From a virus: a stretch of DNA of 64,000 bases. The stretch's first letter is position 1. Every line of letters begins with the position of its first letter. Positions 2,353-9,248 of this stretch are shown one piece after another. The notes under the pieces are model-generated. The model saw only the letters and a program-made list of their open reading frames with translations, was not told the origin of the DNA and did no database searches. The stretch covers positions 7,665 to 71,664 of IMG/VR virus record IMGVR_UViG_3300037963_003785; one strand, 5' to 3'. The position numbers were made by a program, and so were the translations under genes.

Positions 2353-4662
2353 TTAATCCACCAATCCTTGTATAGAACTATCTACTTTTTTCATGTTTTT
2401 ATTTAACTCTTGTAATTGAAATAACATTTCAGCATCATTTACTCTTGTATTATCAGATTCAGTTGTTTGTAGTTGAATCAAGTCATCTAAATTATTTACA
2501 GGTGGTTGTGAGTTTGATTGAATAGATGCCTGTTCTTTGGCTATAGATACATCCCTTGCAACATTTATTGCATCAATTGCAAGAGATGCTGCCGTACCCT
2601 TACCAGGTATAGTTGATGCAGCACCACTCAATAATTCAAGTCCAGCTCCTTTAAAATCACCACCCATAGCTCTGTCAATTGCAAAACCTACTCCCAACAC
2701 AGCACCAATTAATGGTATTTTGGATAATACCCTTTTACCGAGACTTCTCTTTACTACTTGCTCAGTAATTTCTTCAGTAGCCTCTTTTTTTACTGTATTC
2801 TTGAGAGCCTGTTCAGCAACTTCTTTGGATACCTCTTTAGTTGCCATTTTAGCTCCACCCTCGACTACCTTTTTACCAGCTATTTTCGAAAATGCTTTAC
2901 TTGCCCCTTTTCCAACTACAAGAAGAGCTGCAGTTGTAGCTGCAGTACCAATCATATTACCTAAATCACTTCGTAAGAAAGCTCCTAACTTTAATAAAGT
3001 ACCACCAGCTAAATCATCACCTTTCAATACATCCGAAAGGTCAAGGGTTTGGGCTGCAATAGCATCCACAAGAGATTTTGTTTGTCTTGTAAAGTTTTCT
3101 GTCTCTTCGGTTTGACCTGGCATCTTACCACTAGCATCCGCTACTTGTCTACCACCAACCAATCTACTTAATTCACCTACATCGACACCAATCGATTCTG
3201 CCAATGCTCTTTTTGCAAATACATTCAGTTTTTCAAACTCTGCTCTACCACCAAGCTGTTTAACAACTGATTGAGTTGCACCCTCTATATCACCAGTAAA
3301 TGCTAACTCACGTGCCTTATTGAAGTTTAATTGTCTACCAATTAATAATGAGGCCTCTAATTCTTTTTCTATGGATGACTGAAAATCTAATAAACTATTT
3401 GATATCTTTGCAGTGGTACTTAGGGATACTCCTAATCTTCTTGCCTGTATTGCTGCACCCGCCAAGTTAGCACCACCATCTTTTGAAAACTCTGCAAACT
3501 CTGCCGTTGCATCAGCCAAATCTTTCATGACCATTGATGGTGCAACATTATTTAGTTCTGCTAACGTACCGACTGCTGTAACAACGTTTTGTGCAGTTTC
3601 TAATGAAGTACCACCTACAAGAGCAAACTCATTTACTAACTTAGCTGCCTCGTCATTTGCAATCCCAAACCTACCAGCAATAGCGGTTATATTGACTGCT
3701 GAGGCTGCTAGGTTTTCTGGTATAAAACCCAAGTCATCTACTAAAGCCACACCTACTTGTTGTATGTCTTCCAGACCTTTTCCAAATAGTTTTAAATCTA
3801 CGCCAGATTCCTTAAGTGACGAAGTAATAGATTTCATACTACCGACAATCTTATCTGCACTACCAAAACTAACACCAAGTGCATCTCTTGTCTCAACAAA
3901 TGGTGTTAATAATTTTGAAACCGTATCTACCAATTGTTTAGCAATTACTAAAGCAACACCTAATTTTGCAGTAAATCCTACTGCACCAGAACCCAAGACT
4001 TTGAACTTAGCAATCATTTCTTGAACACCTTGATTCATATTGTCGATGGTGTCTTCACCCTCTTTCATTGCATCCACCGCATCTTGTCCTAAATCTGCTT
4101 TTGCTTTTTCAAATCTAACAGCTTGTTTAAGAGTACCAACATATTGTTTTGCAAATTTAGAATTTACTCTTTGAGCCTCTACAAGTTTTTCTTCTAAATC
4201 TAATATTTGTGATGATGTTAATATTTCATCTCGACTTACTTGTAATAATTGTTCAGTAATATCAAGTTGTGCTAACTTACCTTTTGTTTCATTGGATACT
4301 GATTTCGTTCTACCAGCCGCTCGTTTAGCCTGTGCAGTTTCTACGTCAACAATTAACTTTCTTATAGCTAAACCATCACCTAATATCTTGGTCTCAGATG
4401 CAGCACCTTTTGCCAAGTCTTCAATAGTACCGAACCGTTCCCTTGCGTTCTTTGTCATCTCCTTTTCGACTTCGAGAATGGAACGTGCTGATTTTATATT
4501 TTCTTTAAGGTAATCTAATTGTTTTTGGTCGAATTGAGCATTCTGACGTTTAAGTTTTGCAATCTCATCAAATTGTTGTTTTATTTTTGTTGCAAATTCT
4601 ACATCTTTCGCTGAATAAGTACCATCCGCCTTTTTAGAAAATCCTTTAGGTTCTCTCGCCAT
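2353..4662 (-). CDS. Tail tape measure protein
   Basis: A 769-residue protein predicted to span the tail lumen and set tail length. Residues 1 to about 215 are charged and coiled-coil-like (many K, E, Q). A hydrophobic segment follows near 228-250. A long helical middle part of the TP901 core type comes next (ALVDDLGF, GGTSLETAQN), then two more hydrophobic stretches near 575-590 (TAATTAALLVVGKG) and 650-670 (IPLIGAVLGVGFAID), and a helical C-terminus. Alternation of coiled coil with membrane-like segments is typical of tape measures. At roughly 1.5 angstrom per residue the tail would be about 110-115 nm (inference). It follows the gp26-type chaperone gene, the usual position. Confidence 0.85.
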   Translation of the reverse strand: MAREPKGFSKKADGTYSAKDVEFATKIKQQFDEIAKLKRQNAQFDQKQLDYLKENIKSARSILEVEKEMTKNARERFGTIEDLAKGAASETKILGDGLAIRKLIVDVETAQAKRAAGRTKSVSNETKGKLAQLDITEQLLQVSRDEILTSSQILDLEEKLVEAQRVNSKFAKQYVGTLKQAVRFEKAKADLGQDAVDAMKEGEDTIDNMNQGVQEMIAKFKVLGSGAVGFTAKLGVALVIAKQLVDTVSKLLTPFVETRDALGVSFGSADKIVGSMKSITSSLKESGVDLKLFGKGLEDIQQVGVALVDDLGFIPENLAASAVNITAIAGRFGIANDEAAKLVNEFALVGGTSLETAQNVVTAVGTLAELNNVAPSMVMKDLADATAEFAEFSKDGGANLAGAAIQARRLGVSLSTTAKISNSLLDFQSSIEKELEASLLIGRQLNFNKARELAFTGDIEGATQSVVKQLGGRAEFEKLNVFAKRALAESIGVDVGELSRLVGGRQVADASGKMPGQTEETENFTRQTKSLVDAIAAQTLDLSDVLKGDDLAGGTLLKLGAFLRSDLGNMIGTAATTAALLVVGKGASKAFSKIAGKKVVEGGAKMATKEVSKEVAEQALKNTVKKEATEEITEQVVKRSLGKRVLSKIPLIGAVLGVGFAIDRAMGGDFKGAGLELLSGAASTIPGKGTAASLAIDAINVARDVSIAKEQASIQSNSQPPVNNLDDLIQLQTTESDNTRVNDAEMLFQLQELNKNMKKVDSSIQGLVD

Positions 4663-4687: not shown

Positions 4688-4912
4688 TTAAGGTAATGTT
4701 TTCATTATTCTGTCATACTCTGCGTCTGACATATTAGAACGAGTGGTCTTCTCAAGTTTATCGTAGGATTTAATGAAGTCTGCTAATGCATCCTTTACTT
4801 TTGGATTCTTTTTGATTTGTTGAACACTCTTAGCAAAGCGTTTTCTATTAGCCTTCTTTAAAGAGTTGGTTACTTTTTGTAAAAGTTTTTCTGCAAAGCC
4901 TTCATTTAACAT
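4688..4912 (-). CDS. Small basic protein between tail chaperone and tape measure
   Basis: A 74-residue lysine/arginine-rich helical protein (MLNEGFAEKLLQKVTNSLKK at the N-terminus) with no recognised family. The ATG at 4912 is preceded by GGAG at a suitable distance, and an ATATTTAT box lies 27 bases upstream of the start. Position between the frameshifted gp26-type gene and the tape measure suggests a tail-assembly role, but nothing in the sequence proves it. Confidence 0.65.
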   Translation of the reverse strand: MLNEGFAEKLLQKVTNSLKKANRKRFAKSVQQIKKNPKVKDALADFIKSYDKLEKTTRSNMSDAEYDRIMKTLP

Positions 4913-4955: not shown

Positions 4956-5189
4956 CTACTTTCTCGTGATGCCAGGACGGCTCACTTGTGATGTTTTAGA
5001 ACTTTTTTTACGGGCATCTTCGTATTGTTTTCTTTCTTCTTCATAAGCAGATGACATTTTCTGAATATAAAACTTACGTAGATATATGGGCATATTATAT
5101 ATCTCTGTAAAATTAAATCCACCCTTTCCGTAAAATATTAGGGTGAAAATCTGGTCATGAATGTAGGGTCTATCAGTTGCCCGAAGGCC
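4956..5189 (-). CDS. Frameshift extension of the gp26-type tail-assembly protein
   Basis: Seventy-seven codons are open in the +1 frame relative to the upstream gene and end at TAG 4956-4958. The product looks like real protein: RPYIHDQIFTLIFYGKGGF, EIYNMPIYLRKFYIQKM, then a charged tail with EEERKQYEDARKK. In this frame an in-frame TAA lies at 5205-5207 and there is no ATG, GTG or TTG start before the conserved part, so independent initiation is unlikely. The upstream gene reads TTC TTT TGG CCT TCG GGC AAC TGA here; a +1 slip of tRNA-Phe on TTTT (5190-5193) joins the frames to give a fusion of about 326 residues. This mirrors the G/GT tail-assembly chaperones of other tailed phages. The exact slip site is inferred. 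Confidence 0.7.
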   Translation of the reverse strand, partial: GLRATDRPYIHDQIFTLIFYGKGGFNFTEIYNMPIYLRKFYIQKMSSAYEEERKQYEDARKKSSKTSQVSRPGITRK

Positions 5190-5937
5190 AAAAGAACTCA
5201 GTAGTTATTGGGACAGAAACATCAATAGTATTACCCTCATCGGTTAAATACTCATACACTAAGTTAACATCAGGTGTGATACTTTGAGTGTATTTTCTAA
5301 AAGCCTTACTATCGAGGCTAAGAAATTCGTTATCAACAAATTTATTTATTGTCCCTCTCTTAGTATCTCCATCTACTGATAATATCATCTTTTTTAAACG
5401 TGTAGTTGTTTCTGGCAAAATACCAGTATCTTTGGATATTTTTGCTAACCCAGCTAACTCCGAGTCAATTTCCCTTTCGTCTGCTTGTGTTAGTAGTCTG
5501 AACGTTAATGTACGTTTTGAGTTTGGTAATTCAAATTCAAACTCGTTACCATCCTTATATTGTTTACTATCTATTTTCTTATCCCCAAGTTTAGTCAAGT
5601 CTACAACGACAGGATTCTCTTCTCCACTATCTGGATCCAGTACCGTTACGTTATAATCTTTCCCATATCCGAGAATACGAGTTGCAATCATAATTGCATT
5701 TTTGTCTCCAACCAATAAATCATCAATCTTGACTCCCTCTGTAACAATAACAGATTCAAGTAATTTATCAATCACCGTTCCCTTTTTAATAAGGTTAGGT
5801 GATGTCAAAATATCTTCTTCTTTGGCAGTCATATATTTGATATCTACTTTTCCACTTGATAGAGGACTATCTTTTGGATAAAGTAACCCTTTGGATGGCA
5901 GACTAACTTCCTCTGTAGGAAATTGGTATTCAGCCAT
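5173..5937 (-). CDS. 26: gp26-type baseplate hub / tail assembly protein
   Basis: A 254-residue protein of the T4 gp26-like baseplate family. It begins with PTEEVSLPSKGLLYP, the conserved opening of this family, followed by a helical part (EEDILTSPNLIKKGTVIDKLL) and a beta-rich part ending in TTEFFWPSGN. In T4 the gp26 and gp51 genes are adjacent and act in baseplate hub assembly. Here it lies directly upstream of an out-of-frame extension and the tape measure, the arrangement of G/GT tail-assembly chaperones. The short product (stop at 5173) would be the abundant form and the frameshifted product the minor form. Start ATG 5937 is preceded by AGGAG. Confidence 0.8.
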   Translation of the reverse strand: MAEYQFPTEEVSLPSKGLLYPKDSPLSSGKVDIKYMTAKEEDILTSPNLIKKGTVIDKLLESVIVTEGVKIDDLLVGDKNAIMIATRILGYGKDYNVTVLDPDSGEENPVVVDLTKLGDKKIDSKQYKDGNEFEFELPNSKRTLTFRLLTQADEREIDSELAGLAKISKDTGILPETTTRLKKMILSVDGDTKRGTINKFVDNEFLSLDSKAFRKYTQSITPDVNLVYEYLTDEGNTIDVSVPITTEFFWPSGN

Positions 5938-6200: not shown

Positions 6201-6692
6201 TTAGAATTGTAATATTGCGTAATCGTATTGTATTGTCAAAGTAATGTCAGCTGGGTCTGTTGCATTAGCCCAATCTAAGTCATTGAAATTAGCGTTCTGT
6301 ATATAAGAACCTTTCAATGTCCATTCTTCAACTTTATCACCTACTGGCCCCAATACGTTAAAAGTAATGTCCTTTTTATAAAAATCTGAATATCCGTCTC
6401 TACCAGTAACAGACTCATGTGATAGTCTTACCCATTCCATAACTGCCTGAGCACCACTTGGAACAACAGGATCGTATAGAGAAATCTCAATAGGTTCCCA
6501 TGCACCTTTACCTTTAATATATCTTTTTATATTAATATGGTCTAATTCAATGGTTTCAAAATTAATAGTAGGCCTTGTAGCAGTTTTGATTAGATATGCT
6601 GGTATCCCCTCGATATACATGATGTACCGATTTTTAGTTTTCGGTTCAAACGGTGTGAACATTATTTCTGACGGGTCGAGTAAATCAGGCAT
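6201..6692 (-). CDS. 19: Tail tube protein (gp19-like)
   Basis: A 163-residue homologue of T4 gp19, which stacks as hexameric rings to form the inner tail tube. The length matches T4 gp19 (163 residues). Features of the family seen here are the N-terminal FEPKTKNRYIMYIEGIPAYL, the central VMEWVRLSHESVTGRDGY segment and the C-terminal ADITLTIQYDYAILQF. It follows the sheath gene, separated by a hairpin terminator and an ATATTTAT box, so it probably has its own promoter for high expression. Confidence 0.95.
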   Translation of the reverse strand: MPDLLDPSEIMFTPFEPKTKNRYIMYIEGIPAYLIKTATRPTINFETIELDHINIKRYIKGKGAWEPIEISLYDPVVPSGAQAVMEWVRLSHESVTGRDGYSDFYKKDITFNVLGPVGDKVEEWTLKGSYIQNANFNDLDWANATDPADITLTIQYDYAILQF

Positions 6693-6863: not shown

Positions 6864-9248
6864 TTATTCAGGAAATGCTGCTCCTGTTGGTAAGACTACG
6901 AAGTCCAACACAATGAACTCAGCGGTTCTTGTAGGTTGGATAAATATCTGACCAACTAACTGATTCCTATCAACAACATCTGGTGTGTTGTTAGAGTCAT
7001 CCATTACTACCTTGAATGCACTCAGACCACTATTAGCCTGAACACTTTCTAAGAATGGATTAACAATGTTAAGGAATCTATTCCTTGTAGCTGCTGTATT
7101 CTGTTCAAATACCAAGTATCTTGAAGATGAAGCAATGAACTTCTTAAGATTAATTAATAATCTACGTACATTGATTCTATCAAGAGCTGATGGTTTGGAC
7201 TGAAGTGTTTTTTGTCCGAAGACAACCACACCTTGAGCTGGGAATGAAGCTATTGGATTAACTCTACCCTCGTACAAGTCATCTCTCTCACTATGAGTTA
7301 ATCTTGTTTGAGCCATCGTTACACCAAGTTCTGTCAATAGACCTCGATTTAAACCAGCTGGTGCAAACCACTCAGCTGCCACACTATCATTGTTGGCTAA
7401 GACACCAGGAATTACCACATCAGGTGGTACGAAAAGTGACTTTTTCGCTCCTGTTAACTTAACCCACGGATAGTAGACTGCCGCATAGTTTGTATCCAAA
7501 CTCTTAATATCAAGTACTGCATTATCTACAGTTCTTGCTACTCTTGAACCATTGGTGACGTAAAAACAATCACCTCTTGCCTCTACTTTGGAAATAGCAT
7601 GATTTCCTACTTGTGGATGATATTCATAAATAATACCAGGTGTGACCACTAAGTTGACATCAAACTCATCAGGATTACTAATAGCATTTATAGCTCTTTT
7701 GTAAGCTACTGAACCACTAGCAGTGTTCGAAGAACAATCAAATCCTTGTTGGTTTGTTGCTGATATGTCACTACCAAGTTTCTTTGGTACTGCTGGATTA
7801 TCTCCATCAAATCCACCTTGTAATGGTACATTATATTTTCTTTGTTGAATATGTGAATTAGTCAAAGAAACTAATGTTGAACCATTTGCAAAAGTAGCAC
7901 CTAATGAGGATGCATCTGCATGTCCAAAGAAATCACCTAACGACATAGTCACGTTATTACCACTTCCACCTCCTGTTGGAATTGGTGCTAAGTATTCTTT
8001 ACTATCATCGTGGTCAAAGTCAAATCCATATGCTTTACCAGAATCAAACTCATTCCTTGCATCTAACTGACCAGATTTAAATGAAGCAGTAGGTACATTA
8101 TCAACGTTAGCGTTAGGTAATGATACTTTTCCAAATCCAAAAGGAACTAACTCAGGTGATAACGAACGTTCAAGTATTCCGTTGTTAATGTTTGAGATAT
8201 ATATGTTCTTTGATTTATTTGGATAATCTCCATTTACAGTCAATTTACCATTGGAATCGATTGTAATATCTTGGTCACCAATTTCTTTTACAAAGTAATT
8301 TGGTGCATCAGAATCAAGACTCAAGTTATTAAATCCTTCAATAAGGTCACCATCATTGTTTTGGCCTGGATTGTTTACCAAAACATTCAAAGAGAACGTT
8401 CCGTAATCACTACCAGGTACATCAGCTGCTGGTTTAATATTAGAGATTTGAATCTTGAAGTCATCGTTTACATTCGTTCCATGTGAACGTGTTTTGACTT
8501 TAAATAAATTAGCTGTTCCACCACTAATCTTCTGTGAAGTGATGAAAGGTGTTGCAGCCTGTGCATAGTCTTGTGAAAAGTTGTCCTCTCCTGTAGATGC
8601 GAATGAACCTGAACCATCAAGTAAATCAGTATCTCTCATGGTTCTAGCATAACTCTTGTATATGTATACTGGAGTACCAGCACCATTAGCAAGAGTCTGT
8701 GCTTGAGCATTATTAACAGAGCCAAATACATCTTCAATGAAGTTTGAACTACCTGAATCAAATGAGAAATTAATCACTTGAGCACCATGTGTGGATGAAG
8801 TTATTTCCAAGTTAGTATTAGACCAAGTATTGTCTCCAGCATTACTACCAGATAAACTTGCACTACCTTGTAAAGTTTGAGTTCCCTCTACTCCACCACG
8901 TGATGGTTTTAATATTGCTAATGTGTATTGATTTCCATTTGAACCTGAGACACCAAGAGCTATATAGTCATTGGTATACCCACCTATTCCAAGAACACGC
9001 ACAACAGTTACAGCACCAGCACCTCCTTGGAAGTACTTTTGTATTGTTAAAGGTGTATAAAATTTATCGTCTGGTTCACCAAATTCGGTTTTAAATTCGT
9101 CAAAAGAATTAAGTAGTGTTGGTACAAAAGCAGGCCCTTTTGCTGTTGGCCCGATTATTGCTGCACCAATGGCTCCTACACCGACTGGTAAAAACGATAA
9201 GTCTCTTTCACGAGTAAATACACCTGGCGATACGATACGTTCTGCCAT
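6864..9248 (-). CDS. 18: Contractile tail sheath protein (gp18-like)
   Basis: A 794-residue homologue of T4 gp18. The N-terminus IVSPGVFTRERDLSFLP and the following GAAIIGPTAKGPAF are the usual opening of phage sheath proteins. The C-terminal domain with HSERDDLYEGRVNPIASFP, SALDRINVRRLLINLKKFI and IFIQPTRTAEFIVLDFVVLP is the conserved domain that holds sheath rings together. The length is somewhat greater than T4 gp18 (659), the extra lying in the variable surface-exposed middle (about residues 100-500, rich in G, S, N). The gene has its own upstream box and a strong terminator after it, in keeping with a high-copy structural protein. Confidence 0.96.
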   Translation of the reverse strand: MAERIVSPGVFTRERDLSFLPVGVGAIGAAIIGPTAKGPAFVPTLLNSFDEFKTEFGEPDDKFYTPLTIQKYFQGGAGAVTVVRVLGIGGYTNDYIALGVSGSNGNQYTLAILKPSRGGVEGTQTLQGSASLSGSNAGDNTWSNTNLEITSSTHGAQVINFSFDSGSSNFIEDVFGSVNNAQAQTLANGAGTPVYIYKSYARTMRDTDLLDGSGSFASTGEDNFSQDYAQAATPFITSQKISGGTANLFKVKTRSHGTNVNDDFKIQISNIKPAADVPGSDYGTFSLNVLVNNPGQNNDGDLIEGFNNLSLDSDAPNYFVKEIGDQDITIDSNGKLTVNGDYPNKSKNIYISNINNGILERSLSPELVPFGFGKVSLPNANVDNVPTASFKSGQLDARNEFDSGKAYGFDFDHDDSKEYLAPIPTGGGSGNNVTMSLGDFFGHADASSLGATFANGSTLVSLTNSHIQQRKYNVPLQGGFDGDNPAVPKKLGSDISATNQQGFDCSSNTASGSVAYKRAINAISNPDEFDVNLVVTPGIIYEYHPQVGNHAISKVEARGDCFYVTNGSRVARTVDNAVLDIKSLDTNYAAVYYPWVKLTGAKKSLFVPPDVVIPGVLANNDSVAAEWFAPAGLNRGLLTELGVTMAQTRLTHSERDDLYEGRVNPIASFPAQGVVVFGQKTLQSKPSALDRINVRRLLINLKKFIASSSRYLVFEQNTAATRNRFLNIVNPFLESVQANSGLSAFKVVMDDSNNTPDVVDRNQLVGQIFIQPTRTAEFIVLDFVVLPTGAAFPE

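Follow-up and report, generated by a model that had tools for sequence, protein, structure and literature searches.

How does a viral gene that closes at a stop codon come to be followed, one register over, by further protein-like sequence that appears to have no usable start of its own? We address this question for a gp26-type gene in a 64,000-nucleotide stretch of viral DNA (the window, by which we mean this whole stretch). All features of the window described here lie on its minus strand. In frame 0, the gene (positions 5173 to 5937) encodes a protein of 254 aa, and its 3′ end reads GAG TTC TTT TGG CCT TCG GGC AAC TGA, followed at once by an in-frame TAG. The TGA (5173 to 5175) is the fifth codon past the string TTC TTT TGG (5188 to 5196). 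The +1 register is open from GGC (5187 to 5189) for 77 codons (5189 down to 4959), ending at TAG (4956 to 4958), and a reading of the frames shows that it is closed upstream of the string by TAA at 5205 to 5207. When re-read from the window, the TGA, the TTTT at 5190 to 5193, the 77-codon frame and the in-frame stop upstream of it all lie exactly where the original prediction had put them.

We consider it very likely that the entire region (4956 to 5937) is one recoded gene, which would yield two tail assembly chaperone forms from a single start by means of a +1 frameshift at TTC TTT TGG. The short form (TAC-N) would be the 254-aa product of frame 0, and the long form (TAC-NC; 326 aa) would carry the extension (4956 to 5189) as its C-terminal domain. 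At the level of the coding sequence, the locus indeed holds one protein in two versions, a short one and one extended at its C-terminus. The two-form reading draws on gene structure, conservation, selection on the +1 frame, synteny, and homology to proteins fused by a −1 shift and, via them, to T4 gp51.

Gene order and protein identity

The frame-0 protein matches PF12322 (T4_baseplate) with 33.3 bits, against a curated cut-off of 24.5, and also matches phrog_150 (baseplate hub). Its predicted structure (pLDDT 88, pTM 0.84) has baseplate hub and hub assembly proteins as its BFVD relatives. The extension, which was folded as a model separate from the frame-0 part, is predicted to be a three-helix domain (pLDDT 84.6). 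Searched alone, the window's extension matched no family in Pfam, PHROGs or NCBIfam, and Foldseek found nothing significant for it among viral models (best E=0.38).

The gene sits between genes for the tail tube (6201 to 6692; phrog_4542 tail tube protein, E=1.2e-25) and the tape measure (2353 to 4662). In phage immuto, the region annotated as tape measure is 31% identical to the latter (E=2e-19). A tail sheath gene (6864 to 9248; phrog_23 tail sheath, E=1.3e-70) precedes the tail tube gene. One small gene of 74 aa (4688 to 4912), for which a weak match is found in a single relative (L017), separates the extension from the tape measure gene. Thus, the tail genes identified around the locus place it in the position of G/GT chaperones, as had been proposed from its location before a small gene and the tape measure. 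Within the window's tape measure, the C-terminal residues 541 to 713 also have matches (E about 1e-16 to 1e-18) among PHROGs that carry the names peptidase and endolysin.

The gpG and gpGT proteins of phage lambda are likewise encoded before the tape measure and comprise a short major and a long minor form (PMC5009743). In contrast to the window, lambda uses a −1 shift, and no relationship between the protein families of lambda and the window is established here. If the system works like lambda G/GT, the tape measure may be coated by the N domain, with tail tube subunits recruited by the helical domain at the C-terminus; the chaperone role of both forms would follow from homology together with this analogy.

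The shift site and its reading

When viral contigs were searched with the window's frame-0 protein, 80 relatives with 49 to 61% identity were found, of which 78 extend past the junction. These 78 IMG/VR contigs, the window and two named phages (Flavobacterium phage immuto and Microcystis phage Mel-JY01) make up 81 complete loci. Clustering of the loci by protein identity gives 74 groups at 90% and 23 at 60%. Every locus has exactly one site of the same kind and an open +1 extension (81/81). The site is TTTTTTTGG in 67 loci, TTTTTTTAC in eight, TTTCTTTGG in four, and TTCTTTTGG (the window) and TTCTTTTAC in one each. The usual site is therefore a run of seven T (67 + 8 of the 81 loci), and the TTCTTTT of the window is a minority variant.

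Among the same 81 loci, 5 to 8 codons separate the first Phe codon from the frame-0 stop, and no stop interrupts the +1 frame for 64 to 100 codons past the site. The −1 frame closes after 3 to 86 codons without conservation, such that the family has no conserved −1 extension. Because the chance that a random 64-codon stretch is open at the given base composition is about 0.007, and all 81 loci share the feature, the open +1 extension exceeds chance by far. This comparison supports the original prediction of a programmed +1 frameshift in the G/GT position, by which a chaperone of the gp26 type gains an extension at its C-terminus.

The codon proposed to occupy the P site (5191 to 5193 in the window) is TTT in 77 loci, CTT in four and TTC in none, and is always followed by T, although TTC accounts for 20% of Phe codons elsewhere in the same genes. 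In frame 0 the third base of this codon can change silently, and it lies outside the reading of the extension; its fixation therefore fits UUU slipping onto UUU. Indeed, a YTT-T slip codon that can re-pair in the +1 frame is present in 81/81 loci. In such a mechanism, the majority of ribosomes would read the 3′ end of the gene through to the TGA and release TAC-N. In a minority, peptidyl-tRNA-Phe on the P-site UUU would move one base forward to the overlapping UUU (5190 to 5192), GGC would be read next, and 77 codons would complete TAC-NC. The ratio of TAC-N to TAC-NC would be set by the shift frequency. The slip in translation, its frequency and the chaperone functions are the parts of the two-form reading that we infer.

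A ribosomal shift is the best-supported reading of these sites, and a +1 P-site slip on UUU-U or CUU-U accounts for the variant sites better than either a −2 slip or polymerase stuttering. A ribosomal slip of −2 would reach the same frame and add one additional Phe, and where the site is the usual seven T it too would re-pair perfectly. We nonetheless hold it to be very improbable. In the window and in L058 (both TTC TTT T), as well as in GXN1 (TTC TTT C), a −2 slip would land tRNA-Phe on UCU with a middle-base mismatch, whereas a +1 slip re-pairs perfectly in all three. The TTT CTA of L089 likewise favors +1.

Transcriptional slippage at the T run, which would create a mixed mRNA pool where some messages carry the fusion in one frame, has a similarly slight chance of being correct. 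It could draw on the run of seven T present in most loci, and on the occurrence of both shift directions in the family, which the GeneTack study treated as a sign of transcriptional realignment (PMC3711429). However, the extension is kept where only runs of 3 to 4 T are present, as in the window (TTCTTTT), members with TTTCTTT including immuto, GXN1 (TTCTTTC), and L089 (TTTCTATTC). Polymerase slippage is generally known to need longer runs than these. The L089 locus belongs to a huge phage (LR756508) that has the +1 extension and the site TTT CTA TTC CCT, at which the A site would hold CUA while UUU probably slips onto UUC.

A P-site slip on YUU-U is also the means by which bacterial prfB (RF2) shifts +1 at CUU UGA C, which the CUU UGG C variants of the window's family resemble. 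Unlike prfB, the family has UGG or UAC in the A site rather than a stop codon, and is without a consistent Shine-Dalgarno-like stimulator. Such a stimulator was rejected as a family feature, since Shine-Dalgarno-like 5-mers occur upstream of the site in only 8/81 loci, with 0 to 6 in controls, and no clear one is present at the window's site.

Some relatives carry a 6-bp GC stem that starts three bases past the A-site codon and holds the frame-0 stop in its loop (17/81 loci, namely the L003 to L027 group and L065). This stem occurs as GCCGCC/GGCGGC, GCCGGC/GCCGGC, GCGGGC/GCCCGC and GCCGGT/ACCGGC, with compensatory changes at three of the six pairs, and its count compares with a mean of 1.7 and a maximum of 6 in shuffled sequences, where the shuffle ignores relatedness. 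When other stems are included, strong hairpins are found in 24/81 loci versus 0 to 9 in shifted control windows. A downstream hairpin is supported as a stimulator in subsets of loci only; as a general one, it was rejected both for the window and for the family. Since the window's own site has no downstream hairpin, the element appears to be a lineage-specific addition that was probably gained by the +1 site in one sub-clade, where it is probably stimulatory.

Selection on the +1 frame

The extension as a whole has a pN/pS of 0.235 over 24 independent close pairs. For the segment between the site and a YNMP motif, which lies past most dual-coding codons and upstream of an internal ATG, the +1 frame has a pN/pS of 0.131, compared with 1.43 and 2.27 for the other frames, and differences at codon positions 1/2/3 number 48/23/156. 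These values indicate that the +1 extension is under strong purifying selection. Because the pattern extends upstream of the internal ATG, translation as protein appears to begin before that codon, which is the only frequent candidate start of the second frame.

These results bear on the possibility that the extension is a separate small gene, either started at the internal ATG or translated by coupling at the frame-0 stop. The original prediction had stated that the extension lacks a usable start. Strictly, the window does contain an ATG (5091 to 5093) that opens a 45-aa ORF within the extension, so this part of the statement required correction. An ATG at the M of YNMP is present in 63/81 homologues, and small CDSs of this kind are annotated in GenBank records. 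However, the ATG is missing in 18/81 loci, where TTA, CTA, CTG, CTC or TTT takes its place, a Shine-Dalgarno-like 4-mer precedes it in only 3/63, and the strong selection on the +1 frame acts upstream of it. Furthermore, the homologous tail is fused in one frame in T4 gp51. The window's clade thus has no conserved start for a separate gene, and we give this arrangement the least credence of the three alternatives weighed here. A sequencing error as the cause of the frame break is dismissed by the same break in 81 loci.

Relation to T4 gp26 and gp51 and direction of the shift

T4 gp26 and gp51 share with the window the PF12322 N domain, the existence of short and long forms, and a homologous C-terminal tail on the long form. 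Residues 1 to 201 of gp51 correspond to the full-length PF12322 domain, leaving a tail of 48 residues. The two T4 forms are separate genes on opposite strands, in contrast to the window, where one gene with a +1 shift would supply both.

The link to T4 is provided by phages in which the tail is in the −1 frame. A homologous tail in this frame follows the gp26-type gene of Synechococcus phage S-RIM8, PhiW-14, ZPAH1 and a KVP40-type phage, in each of which that gene ends at TTTTTTC. The same arrangement is found at TTTTTTT in Melnitz, and after GTTTTC or GTTTTT in two Ackermannviridae. In a further 80/80 cyanophage-type loci, the canonical heptamer T TTT TTC is followed by one codon and the frame-0 stop, and the −1 frame is open for about 60 codons in 78/80 (14 and 41 in the other two). 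These chaperones thus share with the window a homologous gene and extension and the same Phe-Phe shift position, whereas the window's clade differs by its +1 shift and by a frame-0 stop that comes several codons later.

Profiles of the +1-fused and −1-fused proteins match end to end, Phe-Phe on Phe-Phe (E=2.7e-12, probability 97.6%), and the −1-fused profile matches that of T4 gp51 (E=3e-21, 99.4%). The tails alone also match, with E=1.7e-8 for +1 versus −1 and E=8e-8 for −1 versus gp51; the direct match between the extension family and gp51 is weak and suggestive (E=0.015). Judged by this chain of matches, the unshifted product is of the gp26 type (TAC-N) and the shifted product is therefore of the gp51 type (TAC-NC). 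The proposal that a gp26-type gene plus its extension is gp51-like was correct by way of the −1 group, and was already known.

Small CDSs are annotated at several of these junctions. GenBank records of immuto (L082:3339-3449), Mel-JY01 (L083:3276-3512) and SP-15 (L084:3321-3440) have separate ones on or near the +1 extension, with no annotation of a frameshift fusion. In S-RIM8 (L093:2232-2369) and Methylophilales phage Melnitz-1 (L094:2223-2366), CDSs of 45 to 47 aa inside the −1-frame extension are annotated as ‘baseplate hub assembly catalyst’ or ‘baseplate hub assembly’, and these probably represent pieces of a gp51-type protein made by frameshifting. In another huge phage (L267; LR756511), the gp26-type frame ends ATATCTAATGG and a possible tail domain begins at an ATG overlapping the stop (MDEQFFFLYHLHVGRK...); here the extension could exist as a gene of its own.

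An open tail in the +1 frame is also present in SP-15, LIS04, GXN1 and RM378, and PA5oct and a relative (L106) have the tail in −1 at TTTTTTC. In a TAC-N tree, the side with T4, KVP40, cyanophages and Ackermannviridae has −1 sites or split genes and the side with the window and SP-15 has +1 sites; PA5oct, with its −1 site, is placed near the latter. When three long rows (RM378, L267 and 44RR gp26) are omitted, the +1 rows form one side of a branch (94/82). A single switch then suffices, and we make no claim of several. Because the tree has long branches and its root is unknown, we claim at least one switch and leave polarity and number aside.

It is likely that the recoding site has been kept at the same Phe-Phe over very deep divergence while its direction switched. 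The shift would be −1 on U UUU UUC in the cyanophage, KVP40 and PA5oct types and +1 on UUU-U in the window's clade, SP-15, LIS04, GXN1 and RM378, with separate genes in T4 and the hairpin gained in one +1 sub-clade.

The frameshifted tail chaperone as a device, and its T4 counterpart, are already known. The 2022 abstract of Vladimirov, Gautam and Davidson reportedly names genes 26 and 51 and describes frameshifting as conserved in several T4-like groups. As far as the papers citing that study convey its content, the chaperone link between gp26 and gp51 is already published (Vladimirov, Gautam & Davidson 2022, Virology, doi 10.1016/j.virol.2021.11.003). The PRFect paper (PMC10885494) cites it for T4-like phages that encode a short chaperone and, in a second gene, a long fused one, and the Adele paper (PMC12846349), which itself describes a −1 site in Vandenendeviridae, cites it for −1 signals of the poly-T kind in the TAC-N genes of T4-like phages. 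With Vladimirov et al. (2022) represented through these citing papers, we found no description in the literature of a change of shift direction within the family.

Shifts of +1 in other phages have been reviewed (PMC5009743). The chaperone shift of the haloarchaeal myovirus HSTV-2 is very likely +1. In the cps and tsh genes of Listeria phage PSA, as in the window, a +1 shift extends a gene of the phage structural module, with a 3′ RNA structure in one case; these are other genes, unlike that of the window, and they shift at CCC with proline as the slip codon.

Our findings suggest that the short genes of cyanophages annotated as ‘gp51 baseplate hub assembly catalyst’ are frameshift extensions instead. 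According to the GeneTack study (PMC3711429), orthologous genes that are read by ribosomal frameshifting keep the direction of their shift; the switch described here, if true, would be an exception. Within one protein family of abundant marine phages, +1 sites, −1 sites and split genes at the same junction form a natural series, which would offer a clean system for learning how a recoding site changes direction while its product remains unchanged.
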